Source: Chloroflexota bacterium
GTDB taxonomy: Bacteria > Chloroflexota > Anaerolineae > UBA2200
Length of the DNA stretch: 64,000 bases
Assembly: GCA_014360755.1 (NCBI GenBank)
Contig: JACIWX010000009.1
Coordinates: 1 to 64,000, forward strand
Direction of reading: 5' to 3'
Below, in pieces: positions 13,927-50,143 of the stretch. The position numbers and the translations under genes are program-made. Positions within the stretch are counted from its first letter, which is position 1. The number at the start of each line of letters is the position of its first letter. Below the pieces are notes generated by a model. That model saw only the letters and a program-made list of their open reading frames with translations. It searched no databases and had not been told where the DNA came from.

Positions 13927-14036
13927 AGGGGCAAAATGTGCTAGATCTATGTGGCTGGTAATGCTAAAGTGTGTTGTCAAGGCCAATTTTGGCTAACATG
14001 TCAAAGAAGACGAGCCTTGGGAAAGGGGGAATCTCG

Positions 14037-16925
14037 ATGAGAGCGAAGTTTACCTACCACGTTATCATTCTTACAGCCACTATTAATCTTGTTGCATTGA
14101 TGCTGGTGACGAGAGCCACCACGGCGCAATCTGCCCAGGGCTGGACCTCACCAAGCCAAAAGGAAGTTCCAACTCCTGTCTTGACTCCCACGGTGGTGAT
14201 CCGCCAAGATGCTGTGAATGACCTGGGACAAGCGGTGCCACTTCCTATACCCGTGAAAACGATACCACAGTCCACTGAGGTTCAGGGCTTCACTATGGTC
14301 ACAGTGACGGCGGTGGTACAAAATGAGACTGGGGTACCGGTGCAAAACGCATTGGTAAAGGCTTTTTCTGAGGACTGGGGGGTACGTTACCCCTTTGATT
14401 GGGGAACCTTTTACACCACAGACCAACAAGGCCGAGTCACATGTCGTCTCCCAGCAGGCGACTGGACCTTCTTTGCAGCAAGCGGCGATGCATATAAATG
14501 GAACCGGCCAGGTCATGGCCTATTCGCTTTCCTGCGCACAACAGTAAATGCTTCCACGACGCTTATCCTCAGGCCCAACAGCACATTGACTCTTACTTTT
14601 CGAGATGTAAATGGCAATATGCTCGAGGCTGACGACGTTTATTTGATGGAAAGCAGCCATATCCCCAGGGTCCCATTTCCTATCATAGGGCGAACTCAAG
14701 GAGGGCGCATCACTTTGCACGTAAGTGCAGATGCGCAATATGATCTCCTGCTGCTCAAGCGGCCAGGCTCAACACCCGGTTACTTCTTACATTATTCACG
14801 CCAGCCCGCCGGTGGGACGTTATATCTGCGGCCTACACGCAGCGATCTGGCCCTAGTGCACTTCCGTGCCTATGACCGTCTCGGTCAACCAACCACACTA
14901 AACACTTCGGTTACTGTGGCCTGGCTGGACATGGACCGCATGCACGGATTCTTTGACTTTAATGTGACGGGCCAGACAGACCTGTACATCACGCCTCAAT
15001 GGATACGCCTGCACTACCGAAATCTTTCCGCGCCTGACTGGTACTATTTCTTCGTGGGCAAGCACTATGACTTGCAACCGGGTTCGGAGGTTAGCTACAA
15101 CATGGGCGGGCCGGTATCAGCAGACGTTAAGGTGCTTGGCAAGCAAACAGATACCCAGCTATGGCTGCGAGTTCGAGATGCGTTCGACAACCAAATGGAT
15201 TTCTTCAGCGGTCCTGGGGGAATTTGCAGCATACCGATCACACTCACCCGTCACGGCAACACAATCTACACAGGCACCCTCACTGGCTTGGGGGGTCGCC
15301 TGGAACATGGCTACACTCAAGCTGACTCACCGCAGTATCAAATCAGCCTGGACCTAGGCCCGCCCTACGGTCGCTTTAACCTGACAGGGACACTTCTCTC
15401 TCCAGAGACAGCCTATGGGTGGGAAGTAACCCGTTCAACCCATTTCGACCTGCATACCCCCTACGGTTTCCCAACTCAAACAGCAGCCCTGTTGACAGAG
15501 TTGGAGTCCGCTTACGAGCATTTGAGCAATTATCTGGGAGAGCAACTCTCTGGGAAGATCACTGTGTACATCGAGCCATGGCCTACCAGCGCTGGTTGGG
15601 GTGGGACGAATGTGATGCAAGCATGGTTTGGTGGTTTCCGATGGCATCATCCACAATGGCCAGCTGGGATTTTCGAGCCGGTTGTATGGCACGAGTTAGG
15701 CCATGTTTTCCAGTTCACCCCTCCGCTGTTCCATGGCATCGAATGCCCCTGGTTCTGCGAACCATGGGCTACCTACCTAGGTTGCGAAGTCATTGAGGCG
15801 CTTCAGGGGGAACAATTGGCTGAGTGGCATCGTTCTAACCATATAGATTTCTTCAAGTACATTGACGGCGGCGAAGCCAGCGAAGCAGGGCGTATGCAAT
15901 TCATCTTGTTCTATTTGCGCAAAGTATTCGGCCGAAACATCCATAGCGAGTTTGTACACTGGTGGGCTGACGGATCATACCCACCAGTCAAGACAACTCT
16001 ACGAGGTGCCGGTTTTAGCGACCGTCAGATCGTCACCATCCTGTACTCATATCTTTCCGGACAGAACCTAGGCTGGCTCTTCCGCTTGGGTGGGGTAACG
16101 ATCACCGATCAACAGATTGAACAAGGACTGCAGATCGTCCGCGAGGGTACTACACCAGATCTCTATGGTTTCGTGATTGATGGCCGGGACACTGATTGGG
16201 TCAGCCGTACTCCTGCCGCCGTAGACGCTACAGGGGATAGCCTTTGTGGCGCAGGCACTGATTTGACGGCTTTCTACTACGTTAGCACGCCTGAGTACCT
16301 GTATCTCATGCAAAGAGTAGCAGACAACAATGCTGGTCAGGCCTGGTTCCACTTCCACATTGATCGCAGCGATAGCATTGCTCAACACTATGTCCTTGAC
16401 CTCACAAGCAGCTGGTGTACCCTGTACAACGAAGACAACTGGCAAGCAGTTGGCTATCCTTTGGGAGCCGCGAACGTAGTGGCTGAGGCTCGCATACCCT
16501 GGGCTATGCTGGGGTCACCTCAACGAATAGAGGTATGGCCTGTGACCCCGGGACCTCCCTGTGATGCTTTCTCGACTGCTATCTTGATCCCCATGCAACA
16601 AGGGTGCCCTCCGGACTTGATTGTGTTCAACCCCGAGATTGCTGGTTGCACAGTGATCATTAACGGAGTGGTGACCAGCCCATGCAGCGACGGAGTGCAG
16701 CGTATCAACTGGAACTGGGGTGATGGGACAACCAATGACAGCTGGTTTCCAGCCGTCCACACATATGCTCAGTCGGGTACATATCTGGTGACGATAACAG
16801 CATATACAGCTGCTGGATACACGGCTTCAGACACTAAGACGGTGACCGTATCATGTGGCCCGCCTCCTGCCGTTCGAATTTACCTCCCCCTTATTCTGAA
16901 GGACTCCTACGCTGGCCGTGGGTAA
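14037..16925 (+). CDS. Large secreted HELGH metallopeptidase-like protein with PKD domain and YLPLI tail
   Basis: 962 residues from ATG 14037 (AAAGGGGG upstream). The N-terminal signal peptide ends near TTAQS. Carboxypeptidase-regulatory-like beta domains with VPVQNALVKAF follow. The zinc motif His552-Glu-Leu-Gly-His556 has a candidate third ligand, Glu575, in WFCEPWATYLG, which is a gluzincin-type spacing. Then comes a region with a repeated DGRDTDW/DLT pattern, and a PKD domain near residue 890 (NWNWGDGTTND and VHTYAQSGTYLVTI). The last residues read RIYLPLILKDSYAGRG, the tail shared by three other secreted proteins here. It is likely an extracellular peptidase; the exact family is unrecognised. 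Confidence 0.75.
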   Translation: MRAKFTYHVIILTATINLVALMLVTRATTAQSAQGWTSPSQKEVPTPVLTPTVVIRQDAVNDLGQAVPLPIPVKTIPQSTEVQGFTMVTVTAVVQNETGVPVQNALVKAFSEDWGVRYPFDWGTFYTTDQQGRVTCRLPAGDWTFFAASGDAYKWNRPGHGLFAFLRTTVNASTTLILRPNSTLTLTFRDVNGNMLEADDVYLMESSHIPRVPFPIIGRTQGGRITLHVSADAQYDLLLLKRPGSTPGYFLHYSRQPAGGTLYLRPTRSDLALVHFRAYDRLGQPTTLNTSVTVAWLDMDRMHGFFDFNVTGQTDLYITPQWIRLHYRNLSAPDWYYFFVGKHYDLQPGSEVSYNMGGPVSADVKVLGKQTDTQLWLRVRDAFDNQMDFFSGPGGICSIPITLTRHGNTIYTGTLTGLGGRLEHGYTQADSPQYQISLDLGPPYGRFNLTGTLLSPETAYGWEVTRSTHFDLHTPYGFPTQTAALLTELESAYEHLSNYLGEQLSGKITVYIEPWPTSAGWGGTNVMQAWFGGFRWHHPQWPAGIFEPVVWHELGHVFQFTPPLFHGIECPWFCEPWATYLGCEVIEALQGEQLAEWHRSNHIDFFKYIDGGEASEAGRMQFILFYLRKVFGRNIHSEFVHWWADGSYPPVKTTLRGAGFSDRQIVTILYSYLSGQNLGWLFRLGGVTITDQQIEQGLQIVREGTTPDLYGFVIDGRDTDWVSRTPAAVDATGDSLCGAGTDLTAFYYVSTPEYLYLMQRVADNNAGQAWFHFHIDRSDSIAQHYVLDLTSSWCTLYNEDNWQAVGYPLGAANVVAEARIPWAMLGSPQRIEVWPVTPGPPCDAFSTAILIPMQQGCPPDLIVFNPEIAGCTVIINGVVTSPCSDGVQRINWNWGDGTTNDSWFPAVHTYAQSGTYLVTITAYTAAGYTASDTKTVTVSCGPPPAVRIYLPLILKDSYAGRG

Positions 16926-43973: not shown

Positions 43974-45335
43974 CTATTCGTAGTACAGCACAAGGGGTAA
44001 CAACACTTTCCATCCAGGCACAGAAGTGACGGTAGCCGTTGGCGTGGGAGTCGCCATTGCTGTAGATGTAGCCGTCGGCGTTGCACTGGGCGTCGCTGTG
44101 ACAGTAGCCGTCGCGGTAAACGTCGCTGTCGGCGTCGCACTGGGCATCGCTGTGGCAGTAGATGTTGTGGTAGGCGTCGCCGTAGATGTGGCCGTCGGAG
44201 TGGCACTAGGCGTCGGCGTAACAGGAGTGATTTCCCGCCTACTGTAGTACACATCCGGGTAGCCACTGGCTGCTTCCGCCAGCCAAGCTACATGCACCGT
44301 GTCTGCAACAGCCAGGCACGCATCAGAAACCCCCTTTTGTCCCAAAGCCACGCTCTCTATGGAGCCCCACACGCCGCTGCCCGTGTCCCAGGATGCATAC
44401 TGCACTGCGCCCTCTGTCGTCCAAACCAGGTGGCCATATCCAGAAGCATCCACCGCCAGCGCCGGAGCAAAAGCCCGCTCAGTCCCCGAACGCTTTTGCG
44501 GCCAGCCCCACGCCCCATCCGTCCACTGCGCCCAGTACACCGCCTCCTCGCCCGGCTCACCCTCCTGCCACGCGAGGTACACGTTGCCCTCGCTCACTGC
44601 TATGGACGGCAAAATCGAATCCACTTCAAAAGAGTAGGACACATCCTCCGGCAGCGTCCATTCGCTTCCTGTCCACTGGCTGGCAAAGATCTCCAGCGGG
44701 AAACCCACATCCAACACATCCTGCCAAGCGACCCACAGCGCACCATCAGGGCCATAAGCCAGCACAGGACGGCTGCCATAGGCGTAAGGGATGGGCATTG
44801 TGATCCACACTTCGCCATCGGCAGAACGGCCCAGGAAAATGGGCGCCCATTCTATGGTTTGCTCGCTCCAGACAATCGCCAGCGCACCATCTCCAGCCAC
44901 TGCAATGCGCGGCGAAGAGGACTGCGCGCTGCTTTCCGAAACGTTGACCGGCAGGCTCCAACCGCTCACCGCTTGCCAGGAAACAAAGTAGACATCATCA
45001 CCGCCCTCCGACTGGGCGGCGAAAGCCATGTACACACGGCCCGTGCTATCTGCTGCCAAGGATGGGGAATGCCCGCGTGCTACCGTGGCAATGTCCGACC
45101 AGCCGGAAGCATTGCGCATGCGGTGCAAAATCTGCCCCTCCTCACTCCACACCACATGCACCCAGCCGTTGTGATCCACGATGATGCTTGGCTTTTCGCT
45201 ATAGGCAGCACTGTTTGAACAGTTAAACGGCGCGCTCCATACTCCCCCTTGCGCCAAGCCATCACTAGGAACGCGGAAAATGAAAAACACAACACACCAT
45301 AGCAAAAACAGAAAACGCCACTCAGTACCCACCAT
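43974..45335 (-). CDS. Secreted sialidase-like propeller protein with Thr-rich linker and LLPLVL tail
   Basis: About 453 residues from ATG 45335. Signal peptide: FLFLLWCVVFFIF, ending near GLAQ. The body has repeated blocks of about 50 residues, such as PSIIVDHNGWVHVVWSEEGQ, GRVYMAFAAQSEGGDDVYFVS and GYGHLVWTTEGAVQYASWD. These resemble BNR/sialidase-type propeller blades without clear catalytic residues. A 65-residue Ser/Thr/Pro/Ala linker of TPSATPTATSTATPT type leads to the final VPGWKVLLPLVLYYE. The open frame extends to 45383, but those codons are repeat DNA (tactcctcactc), so the start is uncertain. Confidence 0.7.
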   Translation of the reverse strand: MVGTEWRFLFLLWCVVFFIFRVPSDGLAQGGVWSAPFNCSNSAAYSEKPSIIVDHNGWVHVVWSEEGQILHRMRNASGWSDIATVARGHSPSLAADSTGRVYMAFAAQSEGGDDVYFVSWQAVSGWSLPVNVSESSAQSSSPRIAVAGDGALAIVWSEQTIEWAPIFLGRSADGEVWITMPIPYAYGSRPVLAYGPDGALWVAWQDVLDVGFPLEIFASQWTGSEWTLPEDVSYSFEVDSILPSIAVSEGNVYLAWQEGEPGEEAVYWAQWTDGAWGWPQKRSGTERAFAPALAVDASGYGHLVWTTEGAVQYASWDTGSGVWGSIESVALGQKGVSDACLAVADTVHVAWLAEAASGYPDVYYSRREITPVTPTPSATPTATSTATPTTTSTATAMPSATPTATFTATATVTATPSATPTATSTAMATPTPTATVTSVPGWKVLLPLVLYYE

Positions 45336-45549
45336 ACGCCATACGGAATACGCAATATTCCTCACTCCTCCCTCCTCACTCATGCGAACAGCAGCCCCAG
45401 CTCCAAAGGCTGCTGTCCGAGAGATGGGTTGCTGAGGTCGCAGTGTGCTCGGCTGCCTTCCGCGCCGGCGCCACTGCGGGAGCTGTACATTTTCTTCCCC
45501 TACCTACTCCGCACGGGGAAAAAGCCAGTAGAGCATCTTGTCACAGGAT
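45336..45549. other. Spacer with orphan plus-strand tail codons
   Basis: Contains a short run of the CACTCCTCA satellite (45361-45380). On the plus strand, 45483-45560 encodes LYIFFPYLLRTGKKPVEHLV, then TGFTV and stop. This looks like the conserved secreted-protein tail without a gene in front of it. Confidence 0.35.
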
Positions 45550-46533
45550 TTACGGTGTAGTAGACAAGACCTCGATCTTCTTTGCTGTCAATGGCTGACG
45601 CGGGGAGTACACCGCCTGTACATGCGCTTGCAAGCCAATCCGTGGTGTTCCAACGATCTCCGTCTCGCGCGTGACCCACACTTCGCGTCCACCAACGACC
45701 CAGCGGCCAAGGTAATTCGATGCACGGCCGCCCACACTGGGCGGAAGCCGCTCGATCACGCCGGTCCATTCCACGAATTCCGGCCCATTCTGCACCTCGA
45801 TACGCAGTGCCAGCAGTATGCCATCAGGCTGCCGTATCGCCCGTACTTTGGCGGTCAGCCCAACCTGCGGCTGGCCGATAATCGTCGTCTGGCGCGTGAC
45901 CTTCACCCTCTGGCCTCCAATGATCCAGGCTGGTTGGCCAATGTACTCGATGACGCCCTCGAACTCTACAATGCGCACGCTCCAACCTATCACCTCGATT
46001 TTCAGCGCCTTCAATCCCTCGCTGGTGCGTACCGCCACCACATTCACGAGCACGCCAAGCGCTAACTCGCCGGAAATTTCAGTGGAGTCGTCATACCAGA
46101 TCTTGAGCCGGTTCACGACCAGATAGTCGCTCTCCAGTTCCGTAACCCAGCCACGGATGGTGATAGGCCGCGCCACGTCTGCTGCCGGGAGCACTCGTAT
46201 CCAGATTGCCTCCAGTGCTACGGCTTCTGGGTCGGTCACCGGCAGACGCTTGGCAATCACCTGTACCAATGCACCCACGACTGCTTGTCCTTGCGTCTCA
46301 TCCAGCACCGTGCTTTCAGTTACCTGTACCTGGCGGCCATCAATCACCCATACGCCTACCTTCGTGTCTTCCGGGCGATCCACCACCACGCCAGTGAACT
46401 TGACCAGCGGCACACGTCCGCCAGCCGCTGGCGGAAGCGCCTCAGGCTCAGCCAGGGCAACCCCACTGCCCAAAGCCAAGAGCAGCCCGCTCAGCACCAT
46501 CGTCAATATCACCAATCGCCACTTCTTGTCCAT
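45550..46533 (-). CDS. Secreted DUF5666 repeat protein
   Basis: 327 residues. Signal peptide to about residue 28 (SGVALA), then four DUF5666-type beta units of about 70 residues. Each follows the pattern F-G-V-I..P...G.W.I.G..V.V...T.I.G.P.VGL.A.V.A......L.AL.IEV. AGGAGGAAAGGAG precedes the ATG. Divergent to it lies a sigma/anti-sigma pair whose anti-sigma carries one copy of the same domain (GVIESLPARLLGAWTISGQT). A shared ligand, or direct regulation by that sigma factor, is inferred. Confidence 0.75.
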   Translation of the reverse strand: MDKKWRLVILTMVLSGLLLALGSGVALAEPEALPPAAGGRVPLVKFTGVVVDRPEDTKVGVWVIDGRQVQVTESTVLDETQGQAVVGALVQVIAKRLPVTDPEAVALEAIWIRVLPAADVARPITIRGWVTELESDYLVVNRLKIWYDDSTEISGELALGVLVNVVAVRTSEGLKALKIEVIGWSVRIVEFEGVIEYIGQPAWIIGGQRVKVTRQTTIIGQPQVGLTAKVRAIRQPDGILLALRIEVQNGPEFVEWTGVIERLPPSVGGRASNYLGRWVVGGREVWVTRETEIVGTPRIGLQAHVQAVYSPRQPLTAKKIEVLSTTP

Positions 46534-46859
46534 TCTCTATCTCTCCTTTCCTCCTGAATCTTCAGGGCATTTCCGCCCTCTCACTGTAGAAGAGCAATTG
46601 CTCCGCCAAAAAATACAACAACCCCAGCATCCGCCATACGGAATACGGAATACGCAATACGCAACACTCCTCACTCCTCACTCCTCACTCATCACTCATC
46701 ACTCATCACTCATCACTCCTCACTCCTCACTCATCACTCATCACTCATCACTCCTCACTCCTCACTCATCACTCATCACTCCTCACTCATCATTCTTCCC
46801 CCGTCATTTCTTCCTTACCCCAACGTCATAAAACCAGGAGATATACTTGCCTGTATTTT
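46534..46859. repeat. Divergent spacer with CACTCATCA satellite
   Basis: 46620-46667 holds tandem tacggaatacg/cgcaatacgc units. 46668-46796 is an extended ctcactcctca/ctcatcactca satellite as at 7541-7661. No gene seen. Confidence 0.8.
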
Positions 46860-46887
46860 TTGACTCATTTTTCCCCTCTTTTAATAC
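46860..46887 (+). promoter_or_regulatory. Promoter of sigma-anti-sigma pair
   Basis: TTGACT (46860-46865), 16-bp spacer, TAATAC (46882-46887). Leader only about 20 nt. Confidence 0.55.
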
Positions 46888-46912
46888 GGGTGGGGTTTGC
46901 TGAGGGAATGCT

Positions 46913-47497
46913 TTGCCGACGGAATACAATGATGCGCAATTGATCGTCGCCTGCCGCAAAGGACAGGAGTGGGCGTGGGATATGCTCGTGGAGCGCTACA
47001 AGCGCCTGGTCTATTCCATTGCTCTGCGCGCCGGGTTGGACCAGGAAGATGCCGCCGATGTCTTCCAGACCGTCTTCACGCTCTTGGTGGAGAACCTGTC
47101 TAACCTACACGCTCCGCAGGGCTTGGCAGCCTGGCTCATCACCACGACCAGGCGCACCAGTTGGAACATGCTGCGCAAGCGCAACCGCGAGCTGCCGCAG
47201 AGCCTGGCAGAGACGCAGGATGCCGATTCCAACCATCCTGCTGAGGAATGGCTCCTGCATGGGCATCCCGATGAAAGCCGCTGGGCAGATCAGGCGCTGG
47301 TGCGCGAGGCGCTGGAGCGGATGGGAGGGCGTTGCAAAGAGCTGCTCTGGCTGCTCTATTACGACCCTGCCGAGCCATCCTATGAGCAGATCAGCCATCG
47401 GATGAACTTGCCCTTAGGCAGCATTGGCCCCACAAGAGCGCGCTGTCTGCAAAAAATGCGCCAGATCCTGCAGGCAATGGGGATGGATGGAGCATGA
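46913..47497 (+). CDS. ECF-type RNA polymerase sigma factor
   Basis: 194 residues from TTG 46913, with GAGGG 6 bp upstream. Sigma region 2: WAWDMLVERYKRLVYSIALR then DAADVFQTVFTLLVENL. Region 4: GRCKELLWLLYYDPAEPSYE then QISHRMNLPLGSIGPTRARC. Its stop overlaps the anti-sigma ATG (ATGA), so production of the pair is coupled. It probably directs transcription of the divergent DUF5666 gene and its own operon; no target promoter is proven. Confidence 0.88.
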   Translation: MPTEYNDAQLIVACRKGQEWAWDMLVERYKRLVYSIALRAGLDQEDAADVFQTVFTLLVENLSNLHAPQGLAAWLITTTRRTSWNMLRKRNRELPQSLAETQDADSNHPAEEWLLHGHPDESRWADQALVREALERMGGRCKELLWLLYYDPAEPSYEQISHRMNLPLGSIGPTRARCLQKMRQILQAMGMDGA

Positions 47498-49002
47498 GCC
47501 ATCACGAAATACACTTCACGAACCTAATAGATTGGCTGGACAACCGCCTCGACGCAGAAGCGCGGGAGCGTGTGGAAGCGCATGTGGCGAGCTGCCCAGC
47601 CTGCCAGCGCGACCTTGCCTGGCTGCAACGGGTCATCCAAGCAGCGCGCAGCGACGACACGGTCGAGCCTCCAGCAAAAGCCGTGGCGCAGGTGAAGGCA
47701 TTGTACCGTGCGAAAAAGGCGGCACTCCGGGGTCGGCAGCGCGCGCCGCGCCTGGCTTTTGCCTTCGCGCTGACGCTGGTGCTGCTCATCAGCATGGCAT
47801 GGTATCTCACGCAGGTGCCTACATTGTTCGCGCGCGAGGCTACGTTGACCACCGTGCTGGGTTCTGCGCAGGTACGGCATGCAGACAGCCAAACGTGGCA
47901 AGAAATGGCAGCAGGTGAAACCGTGCATGAAGGGGATGGAGTGCGTGTCCTCGATGGGACGGCTGTGCTCGCCTTGTTCGAGGGCAGCCTGCTGGAGATG
48001 CAGGCGGGGAGCGAATTGGCTCTCTCCACACTGCGCTCCGGCCTCTTTGGGGTGACGTATCAGGTTGTGTTGGGACAAACAGCAGGGGTGGTGGATTACA
48101 ACGTAGCCCCCTTGCGCAGCGCGCTATGCCGCTTTGAGGCATATGCCCCGACGGTGCGGGTGGCTGTGCATGGCACGCGCTTCGTGATCGCCGTGCAGAG
48201 CCAGGAACAGACCCAGGTAACCGTGCTACAGGGTAGGGTAGAGGTAACCAATGCTGTGACAAAGACGGTGCTGGTCGAGCGCGAGGCAGCGGTTGTGCCA
48301 GCCAATGCCCCGTTGGTCTACTTGCCGACTCTGACGCCACTGCCCACGCCAGAGCCTACAACGACTCCCACGCCATCGCCTGCTGCTCCTACGTTGCCTT
48401 CGCCGACCGCAACGCCTACACACATGCCCGCGCTGCCGCCACAACAGGGCAGACACCCTACAGCCATGCCACCGTCCAGCACGCCTCAACCCATGCCCAG
48501 CCAGACGCCTTCGCCCACTGCCAGCATGTCTATCACGCCCACACTGACGCTGGAGGCAAACCGAGTGTCGTTCCGAGGCGTCATCGAGAGCCTCCCCGCC
48601 CGGCTGCTGGGAGCGTGGACAATCAGTGGACAGACTGTGTGGGTCACGCCTAGGACGCAAATTACAGGCACTCCTGAAGTAGGGCGGCGTGCGAGGGGCA
48701 TCGCTCTGGCTATTGCCGGCCAACCATTGGTAGCGCTGCAGATAGAGATTGAGGAGCTATATCCCACGGCAACGCCCTCACCTGGACTTGGCACGCACCC
48801 TACGCCTACGCCGATGCGCACGATCATGCCTGGCCCACGGCCTTCGCCTATCGTCACCCTTCCACCCATGCGCACGCCCATTGCTACGCTGCTGCCACGC
48901 CGCACGCCGCACCGGACACCCATACCGTCATCCACGCCTTCGCCGCAGCCAAGCGCCTCACCCGAGGCAACGGCAACGCCTCCTGCACTCACAGGTTCGT
49001 AG
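47494..49002 (+). CDS. Anti-sigma factor with zinc-binding domain, FecR and DUF5666 domains
   Basis: 502 residues. The N-terminal zf-HC2 anti-sigma domain has HVASCPACQRD (residues about 29-38). A membrane segment near 93-111 (FAFALTLVLLISMAWYL) is followed by a FecR-like domain (about 115-270: VLGSAQVRHAD, EGDGVRVLDGTAVLALFEGS, VHGTRFVIAV). A TPTPSP-rich linker, one DUF5666 domain (about 350-420) and a second Thr/Pro-rich tail complete it. It likely sequesters the preceding sigma factor until an outside cue releases it. The final TCG-TAG is part of a ttcgtagtgcgc repeat. Confidence 0.85.
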   Translation: MSHHEIHFTNLIDWLDNRLDAEARERVEAHVASCPACQRDLAWLQRVIQAARSDDTVEPPAKAVAQVKALYRAKKAALRGRQRAPRLAFAFALTLVLLISMAWYLTQVPTLFAREATLTTVLGSAQVRHADSQTWQEMAAGETVHEGDGVRVLDGTAVLALFEGSLLEMQAGSELALSTLRSGLFGVTYQVVLGQTAGVVDYNVAPLRSALCRFEAYAPTVRVAVHGTRFVIAVQSQEQTQVTVLQGRVEVTNAVTKTVLVEREAAVVPANAPLVYLPTLTPLPTPEPTTTPTPSPAAPTLPSPTATPTHMPALPPQQGRHPTAMPPSSTPQPMPSQTPSPTASMSITPTLTLEANRVSFRGVIESLPARLLGAWTISGQTVWVTPRTQITGTPEVGRRARGIALAIAGQPLVALQIEIEELYPTATPSPGLGTHPTPTPMRTIMPGPRPSPIVTLPPMRTPIATLLPRRTPHRTPIPSSTPSPQPSASPEATATPPALTGS

Positions 49003-49192
49003 TGCGCACTTTAGTGCGCCATGAGCGCTTCCGCGCTCAATAGTTCGTAGCGCGCACTTCAGTGCGCATTGAGCGCCAAAAGCTTGCCCTGAGCGCAGCG
49101 AACGGGCGCTCACTACAAACCCGTTCGTAGTGCGCCCTTCCGTGCGCATTGAGCGCCAAAAGCTTGCCCTGAGCGCAGCGAACGGGCGCTCA
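49003..49192. repeat. TTCGTAGTGCGC repeat block
   Basis: Three copies of gttcgtagtgcgc...gtgcgcattgagcgccaaaa linked by agcttgccctgagcgcagcg and ending gggcgctcactacaaac. The first copy supplies the anti-sigma stop codon, and the block abuts the end of the esterase gene. The same composite occurs at 63333-63420. Confidence 0.8.
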
Positions 49193-50143
49193 CTACAAAC
49201 CCACTCTCCGCTGTGCAAACAGCCACTGGTACAGCGCCTGGTCCTGATATGCCCGCTCCCAAGCCTCGCGGTGCGCGGCATCGTCATAGAGCGTGAAGCG
49301 CACGTCACCCCCGCACGCCCGCAGCGCTTGCACCGCCTTCTCCGATTCGGTGTAAGGCACATTCTGGTCCAGCCGCCCGTGGAACACCCAAACCGGCAAC
49401 CCCACCAGATCACACAGGTTGGGCGGCATGTCGTCCCCCACCGCATTGGCTCCGCCCGCAATGGGCACCAGCGCCGCAAAACGTTGTGGATAGCGCAGCG
49501 CCAACGCCCATGCGCCATAAGCCCCCATGCTGATGCCTGTCAAGTAGATGCGCCCCGTATCCACCGCATACATGGACTGCATTTGATCCAGAAAAGCGCC
49601 GACAATGTGCGCCCGTGACCACCAGCGCTTTCCCTGAGGACATTGCGGAGAGACGACGATGGCTGGGAAATCAGGCCACCCTTCCAGCAACTTGGGCAAG
49701 CCCTCCCTGCGCAGCAGATTGGGGTCATCCCCGCGCTCTTCAGAACCGTGCAGGAACACGACCAGTGGCCATTTCCGCGCCGGCTCTTGCCCATAACCCT
49801 GCGGAAGGTAGAGCAGGTAATGGACCTCTACCGTCTCCGTGATGCCATTTCCACTATCCACTGGCACAGTCAGCGAACCCGTTTGCTGGCCGCTCCAGGC
49901 GCCTGTGGTGGGCAAAGGGTGTGGGCTAGGCGTGGGCGTTGCAGGCACGGCAGTCGCCGTGCACGTAGGAGATGGAGTGGCCATCGCGGTCGGAGGAACT
50001 GCTGTGAAGGTTGCGCTAGGCAGCGGCGACGGTGTAGCCGTAGCGGGAGCCGCAGTCAGTGAAGCAACAGGGGAACCGACCTGCGCACACCCCGCCACCA
50101 CCCAGAGGATCGCCAGCGACAAGAAAAGGGCCAGGAATTTCAA
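49193..50143 (-). CDS. Lipoprotein carboxylesterase / dienelactone-hydrolase-like
   Basis: 316 residues. Lipobox VAGC (Cys19), then a 45-residue TPSP/TAVP linker. The alpha/beta hydrolase has oxyanion VVFLHGSEERGDD near residue 128, nucleophile Ser in YLTGISMGAYGAW near 200, a candidate acid Asp in FHGRLDQNVPY and His in DDAAHREAWE. It resembles esterase/PHB-depolymerase-type surface hydrolases. The start is TTG 50143, overlapping the upstream stop (TTGA), with AGGGA just before. It is translated from the phosphatase operon. Confidence 0.82.
   Translation of the reverse strand: MKFLALFLSLAILWVVAGCAQVGSPVASLTAAPATATPSPLPSATFTAVPPTAMATPSPTCTATAVPATPTPSPHPLPTTGAWSGQQTGSLTVPVDSGNGITETVEVHYLLYLPQGYGQEPARKWPLVVFLHGSEERGDDPNLLRREGLPKLLEGWPDFPAIVVSPQCPQGKRWWSRAHIVGAFLDQMQSMYAVDTGRIYLTGISMGAYGAWALALRYPQRFAALVPIAGGANAVGDDMPPNLCDLVGLPVWVFHGRLDQNVPYTESEKAVQALRACGGDVRFTLYDDAAHREAWERAYQDQALYQWLFAQRRVGL

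Follow-up and report, generated by a model that had tools for sequence, protein, structure and literature searches.

We analysed a window of 64,000 nucleotides (positions 1 to 64,000 of contig JACIWX010000009.1, assembly GCA_014360755.1) from a Chloroflexota bacterium of the class Anaerolineae. It holds the gene of an extracytoplasmic function (ECF) sigma factor, the gene of its membrane anti-sigma factor and, transcribed divergently from this pair, du1, which encodes an exported protein made of four DUF5666 units. A further DUF5666 unit stands in the outer part of the anti-sigma factor. On balance, and with modest confidence, we favour the view that these genes form a switch in which a DUF5666 sensor, with a predicted oligonucleotide/oligosaccharide-binding (OB) fold, matches the secreted protein under its control, and in which sensor and product share a ligand. 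This view draws on the matched units of the two proteins, on a promoter-like motif found before both du1 and the sigma gene, and on the recurrence of DUF5666 beside sigma factors in the class.

Domains of the anti-sigma factor and of the secreted protein

The sigma factor gene (194 residues, TTG start; 46913..47497, forward strand) was recognised from profile matches and from a sigma tree. Its product scored 46.8 bits against Sigma70_r2 and 77.5 bits against TIGR02937 over residues 21-186 (cut-off 42.9), and Sigma70_r4 alone scored under its cut-off. With regions 2 and 4 only, a length of about 200 residues and an adjoining anti-sigma gene, it has the make-up of an ECF sigma factor. The anti-sigma gene (502 residues; 47494..49002, forward strand) overlaps it by four bases. 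In its product, a cytoplasmic zf-HC2 domain (47524..47607, 1.3e-8; PF13490, 35.2 bits against a cut-off of 22.2) with the motif HVASCPAC (H-x3-C-x2-C) is followed by a single transmembrane helix (residues 86-107, 47749..47814; sequence and AlphaFold2 model), as in a zinc-type class I anti-sigma factor. Class I anti-sigma factors are ordinary in Chloroflexi, where 72% of ECF sigma factors are linked to one (PMC7406223).

Outside the membrane comes a FecR domain (residues 113-277, 47830..48324), which scored 25.9 bits against PF04773 (cut-off 24), was seen in the AlphaFold2 model and was matched by Foldseek to a Parabacteroides anti-sigma factor (4m0n) and to PupR (6ovk). The DUF5666 unit (residues 357-420, 48562..48753) lies further out, between Thr/Pro linkers. 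It reached 18.4 bits against PF18914, under the cut-off of 27, and its orthologue at locus L068 of a close relative reached 34.1 bits. It was modelled as a complete six-strand barrel (pLDDT mostly 80-89), and Foldseek matched it to OB folds, for example CusF and cold-shock domains. The preliminary description of this DNA had read a zinc domain, a membrane segment, FecR, Thr/Pro linkers and one DUF5666 unit in this protein, and profiles and models agree with that reading. The predicted layout is that of an anti-sigma factor anchored in the membrane, its sensor carried outside by a flexible stalk.

The product of du1 (327 residues; 45550..46533, reverse strand) has a hydrophobic N-terminal signal and scored 86.1 bits against PF18914, in four stretches. 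Unit 1 (residues 43-114, 46192..46407) was delimited from the modelled strands and a local hidden Markov model (HMM), units 2 (45994..46155) and 3 (45796..45960) from the profile, and unit 4 (residues 252-323, 45565..45780), the closest to the anti-sigma unit, from the local HMM, the model and a tree of units. AlphaFold2 returned four separate barrels with a mean pLDDT of 85 and a pTM of 0.37, so the spatial arrangement of the four beads is not predicted. Top structural matches were S1, Unr, EF-P and CusF. On these models, DUF5666 is predicted to be an OB-fold barrel; a sequence search of the PDB gave no match with E < 0.03. Conserved positions of the unit are chiefly structural G, V, W, T, A and I, and CusF-like metal binding was rejected, the unit profile having no conserved Met or His. 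All three genes, and the four units of the secreted protein, were thus recovered where the preliminary description had put them.

Matched units and a shared promoter-like motif

The window genome (G000) holds a second complete module, on contig C1. It consists of an ECF sigma factor, an anti-sigma factor with a DUF5667 domain and four DUF5666 units, an exported protein of four DUF5666 units and an exported propeller, all encoded in one direction. We built a tree of 40 DUF5666 units from these two modules in three genomes, G000 and its close relatives G001 and G002 (59 columns). The FecR-type anti-sigma units clustered with unit 4 of the protein secreted from the same module (SH-aLRT 94), and in the DUF5667 type, unit 4 of the anti-sigma factor clustered with unit 3 of the cognate secreted protein (SH-aLRT 96). 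Top scores favoured the cognate partner in most cases, at an identity between anti-sigma and secreted units of about one half.

The preliminary description had suggested regulatory coupling of the two transcription units, with a shared motif to be sought before 46533 and 46913. Such a motif was found by upstream alignment and genome search. It reads TGTATTTTTT-N13-CTCTT before du1 (46590..46617, reverse strand) and TGTATTTTTT-N14-CTCTT before the sigma gene (46852..46880, forward strand), and, with small variations, it precedes both genes in all three genomes. The pattern occurs twice in the window against 0.01 expected. Exact matches numbered two in the whole of G000 (2.98 Mb), before du1 and the sigma gene only, and two in G001, before the same genes on different contigs. 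G002 had four, namely those before the sigma gene and du1 plus two away from gene starts, and G003-G005, genomes without this sigma factor, had none. The longest k-mer common to all six upstream regions was an 8-mer, against at most a 5-mer in shuffled sequences, a comparison that ignores kinship. In a control that keeps kinship, sigma/du1 ranked first of 406 orthologous gene-pair comparisons between G000 and G001, with a 10-mer against 8 for the next best. These upstream sequences are strong, though not experimental, grounds for thinking that one sigma factor reads both promoters. A larger regulon reached through a looser motif was also considered and rejected: with two mismatches there were few matches per genome, and exact ones stood only before the sigma gene and du1. 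In other genomes with FecR-type systems no exact motif was found near the sigma genes; in G034 the sigma gene is preceded, at the same spacing, by TGTAT-N18-CTCTT (read by eye). A shared motif was also rejected for the DUF5667 modules, where the upstream regions, looked at for one transcription unit, resemble ordinary TTGACA/TATAAT-type promoters.

Adjacency of these genes is not conserved in the close relatives. Locus L015 of G001 is collinear with the window (identity 84% for an amylase, 69% for du1, 66% for an alpha/beta hydrolase and 83% for the next gene), and the G001 sigma (82%) and anti-sigma (62%) genes lie on another contig, at L067. Likewise, in G002 the pair is at L068 and du1, unlinked, at L018. 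Since the genes are on different contigs in both, having the sigma pair beside du1 is, among these three, special to the species of the window. In G001 a short intergenic stretch separates the hydrolase gene from du1 and contains the motif; the window has the sigma pair between the hydrolase gene and the motif of du1. One could argue from the collinear sister locus, which has no sigma/anti-sigma pair, and from the repeat arrays that flank the inserted pair, that a recent rearrangement merely brought functionally unrelated genes together. We hold this to be very improbable, as the same motif precedes both genes where they are unlinked and the same association extends to many families elsewhere in the class.

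Because the unit match is kept at unlinked genes, it does not merely reflect local gene conversion in present genomes. This, the unit matches seen independently in both types of module and the common motif before both genes also suit the main rival to shared-ligand sensing, namely that the anti-sigma factor reads the exported four-unit protein itself, or its surface assembly. Free du1 protein would then bind the anti-sigma unit, or compete with it for one docking site, and sigma activity would track the assembled product. We regard this homotypic feedback as possible but rather doubtful: in the model the du1 units are separate beads that do not pack confidently against one another within the chain, the identity between anti-sigma and secreted units is only about one half, and we know of no OB array of this sort that associates with itself.

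Several repeats lie at this locus. A CACTCAT repeat (18 copies, 46665..46792) stands between the two promoters. On either side of du1, at 46635-46792 and 45340-45385, the same interspersed sequence is found, CATACGGAATACGCAATA followed by CACTC-type repeats. Directly 3' of the anti-sigma gene, at 49043-49202, lies a pair of 80-bp direct repeats with 96% identity, at the other border of the sigma/anti-sigma pair as judged against the collinear sister locus.

DUF5666 beside sigma factors

We inspected 56 DUF5666 loci from the window genome and its relatives (41 genomes in all, 34 of them with DUF5666). An ECF sigma factor lay within 5 kb in 31 of the 56, against 1.68 expected from sigma density, an enrichment of about 18-fold (nominal P 7e-33, not corrected for kinship); as the loci were drawn from many families, kinship alone does not explain it. 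DUF5666 was fused into the anti-sigma factor at 24 of these loci. Most such anti-sigma factors are built on DUF5667, and the FecR backbone is in the minority. DUF5667 was found at 55 places, about half of them with DUF5666 inside or adjoining; for FecR this held at 6 of 48 places, against about 0.23 expected. Among FecR proteins, 6 of the 11 linked to a sigma gene had DUF5666, versus 0 of the 14 without a sigma neighbour (Fisher p 0.003, a value that overstates the significance because some of the 11 had been fetched for their DUF5666). A random placement of DUF5666 relative to FecR, which would have told against the preliminary description, was therefore rejected. Its wording of a FecR-type cascade holds for the window, whose anti-sigma factor carries the only FecR profile match in the genome, but proved too narrow given that DUF5667 is the commoner backbone. 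The idea that FecR is what defines the partners of DUF5666 was dropped, since most DUF5666 anti-sigma factors are of the DUF5667 type and most FecR proteins have no DUF5666.

Wider sampling gave DUF5666 in 119 of 251 genomes of the phylum. At further loci in the class, a sigma factor with a DUF5666-bearing anti-sigma factor was found in 10 of 10, and a separate exported DUF5666 protein in 8 of 10. Outside the class the sigma link was seen in 1 of 10 (L131), and several others had DUF5666 near histidine kinases and response regulators. The link itself recurs elsewhere in Chloroflexota; the exact adjacency did not extend to G001 and G002.

In a tree of 66 sigma factors, the clade of the window sigma factor (window, L067, L068 and L085) was split from the others by 5.7 changes per site, and the presence of DUF5666 on the partner anti-sigma factor changed at least nine times along the tree. 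A single clade for FecR-type sigma factors gave p-AU 0.056.

A less specific role has to be weighed against these figures. DUF5666 could be a general stalk or wall-binding OB fold used by exported proteins of these bacteria, duplicated from the target gene into the anti-sigma factor, with FecR alone as the sensor. Its commonness in the phylum, its presence near two-component systems and within efflux operons of the MacAB type, the stalk-like Thr/Pro linkers on both sides and the close homologue L085, which lacks the unit, would all fit. We consider it unlikely, however, in view of the roughly 18-fold association with sigma/anti-sigma genes, which arose repeatedly. DUF5666 also occurs on anti-sigma factors of the DUF5667 type without any FecR, it was found in none of the 14 FecR proteins away from sigma genes, and domain shuffling has no bearing on the promoter link.

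Other contexts of the family were noted. At L125, L126 and L129, in other classes of the phylum, the genes of three-unit exported DUF5666 proteins have those of an OmpR-type response regulator and a HAMP histidine kinase nearby, which adds another type of membrane signalling system to those found together with DUF5666. Exported proteins with a single unit stand in MacAB-like operons at L012 (5309-5764 of G000 contig C17), L016, L022, L025, L027 and L055. Read from sequence, these operons encode an ABC ATPase, a membrane-fusion protein and an FtsX-like permease, and the place and fold of DUF5666 in them recall CusF in Cus efflux. DUF5667 anti-sigma factors without DUF5666 (L093-L106) often have long low-complexity tails (Pro/Thr, Gln/Asn or Asp/Ser/Asn), which gives the impression that the family can freely swap its outer part. 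In one family of the class (L115-L117, L121, L122), a protein of mostly about 500 residues with two transmembrane segments is encoded between the exported DUF5666 gene and the sigma gene; the L116 version, which was searched, had no Pfam match.

Next after du1 in the window comes bp1 (43974..45383, reverse strand), which encodes an exported beta-propeller-like protein of 469 residues (NF053835, 31 bits, below cut-off) with a Thr/Pro linker and a C-terminal LLPLVL tail. The two genes probably share one transcript, bp1 being downstream. In many modules a homologue of bp1 stands behind the gene of the secreted DUF5666 protein, and the two are fused into one protein in L033, where BNR_4 was matched, and in L061. 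Exported propellers end in short tails such as LLPLVLYYE, FLPIVLKG or YLPLVVR, often behind a Thr/Pro linker (window 43974-45383 and 13971-16925; L011, L014, L033, L038, L063 and others); this tail looks like a sorting or anchoring signal. Around the sigma pair, the window thus has genes for the exported OB protein, the propeller, the amylase, the alpha/beta hydrolase and a probable inositol-monophosphatase-like protein.

Proposed mechanism and known systems

Four elements of the proposed mechanism are inferred: reading of the motif by the sigma factor, ligand binding by DUF5666, a common ligand for sensor and product, and the proteolytic step. At rest, the zf-HC2 domain would keep the sigma factor at the membrane, with the FecR-DUF5666 arm held outside the cell on its Thr/Pro linkers. 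Contact of the DUF5666 unit with its ligand, for which an envelope or extracellular polymer or a small molecule is a candidate, would inactivate the anti-sigma factor, probably by regulated proteolysis as in other ECF systems. The freed sigma factor would then fire two promoters, its own and that of du1 with the propeller gene behind it, and the exported du1 and propeller proteins would bind the same ligand with higher avidity.

By analogy, the most likely arrangement would be an RsgI-like one, in which the sigma factor drives itself and a secreted multi-OB protein and the anti-sigma factor senses with the same domain; it is this parallel that makes us favour shared-ligand sensing. In Clostridium thermocellum, the sensors of RsgI anti-sigma factors are carbohydrate-binding module (CBM) or GH10 domains that resemble domains of the enzymes under their control (PMC4711584). 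As there, the outer anti-sigma domain in the window is of the same family as the domains of a secreted product, both being DUF5666 here; SigI drives itself and secreted genes, and here such co-regulation is predicted from the motif only. The parts differ: SigI is not an ECF sigma factor, and RsgI has its own N-terminal domain and CBM3, PA14 or GH10 sensors with known polysaccharide ligands, whereas our systems combine an ECF sigma factor, zf-HC2/FecR or DUF5667, and a DUF5666 sensor. Profile searches of the window sigma and anti-sigma factors gave no RsgI_N match, and zf-HC2 and ECF instead. With FecI/FecR (FecR, PupR) the window system shares a FecR fold outside the membrane and a sigma/anti-sigma pair in one operon, but it has a zf-HC2 anti-sigma domain and an extra OB-fold unit; no TonB-dependent transducer gene lies beside the window sigma pair, the rest of the genome not having been searched. 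In the RsiV/SigV lysozyme receptor, the outer domain of an ECF anti-sigma factor directly binds an extracellular protein and the anti-sigma factor is then degraded (PMC4183432, PMC5014341); that outer domain is another one, and the ligand does not come from the product family of the regulon.

Several observations weigh against shared-ligand sensing as we propose it. The DUF5666 unit profile has no conspicuous conserved polar or metal site. The unit tree has few columns, its deeper forks are unresolved, and a support of 94 is not strong. At L085 (G034; contig returned as Anaerolinea sp. Tomsk) the same pair of sigma and FecR anti-sigma factor occurs with no DUF5666, so that a switch of this sort can do without the unit. 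Relatives of du1 are also found without this sigma factor (L023 of G004, L037 of G013), so the secreted protein is not bound to one regulator. The motif was derived from the very upstream regions in which it is reported, and its counts per genome are not clearly above those of a reversed control pattern (4, 1 and 1), so that only its positions are informative.

A bolder idea makes DUF5666 an extracytoplasmic fold that Chloroflexota dedicate to signalling, secreted as tandem arrays and repeatedly grafted, as one or a few copies, onto unrelated anti-sigma factors, each switch reading its own product by direct OB-OB recognition in a self-measuring surface-assembly circuit. We hold this, too, to be possible but rather doubtful.

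By profile, the secreted units belong to PF18914, a family without a function on record, and the anti-sigma unit, which scored below the cut-off, probably does so too; to this family we add an OB-fold architecture, predicted from matches to CusF, cold-shock and S1 domains. In our literature search DUF5666 was named in only four papers and nowhere with a sigma link, DUF5667 in no paper, and no description of this sigma/DUF5666 arrangement was found. A widespread domain without known function thus gains a predicted OB fold and a recurring place in envelope signalling, with a minimal predicted regulon of two promoters at the window locus. The findings suggest an independent origin in Chloroflexota, on two or more different anti-sigma backbones, of the RsgI principle by which a sensor uses the same domain as the product it controls, and the recurrence of this pairing from different parts across the class points to a job for DUF5666.

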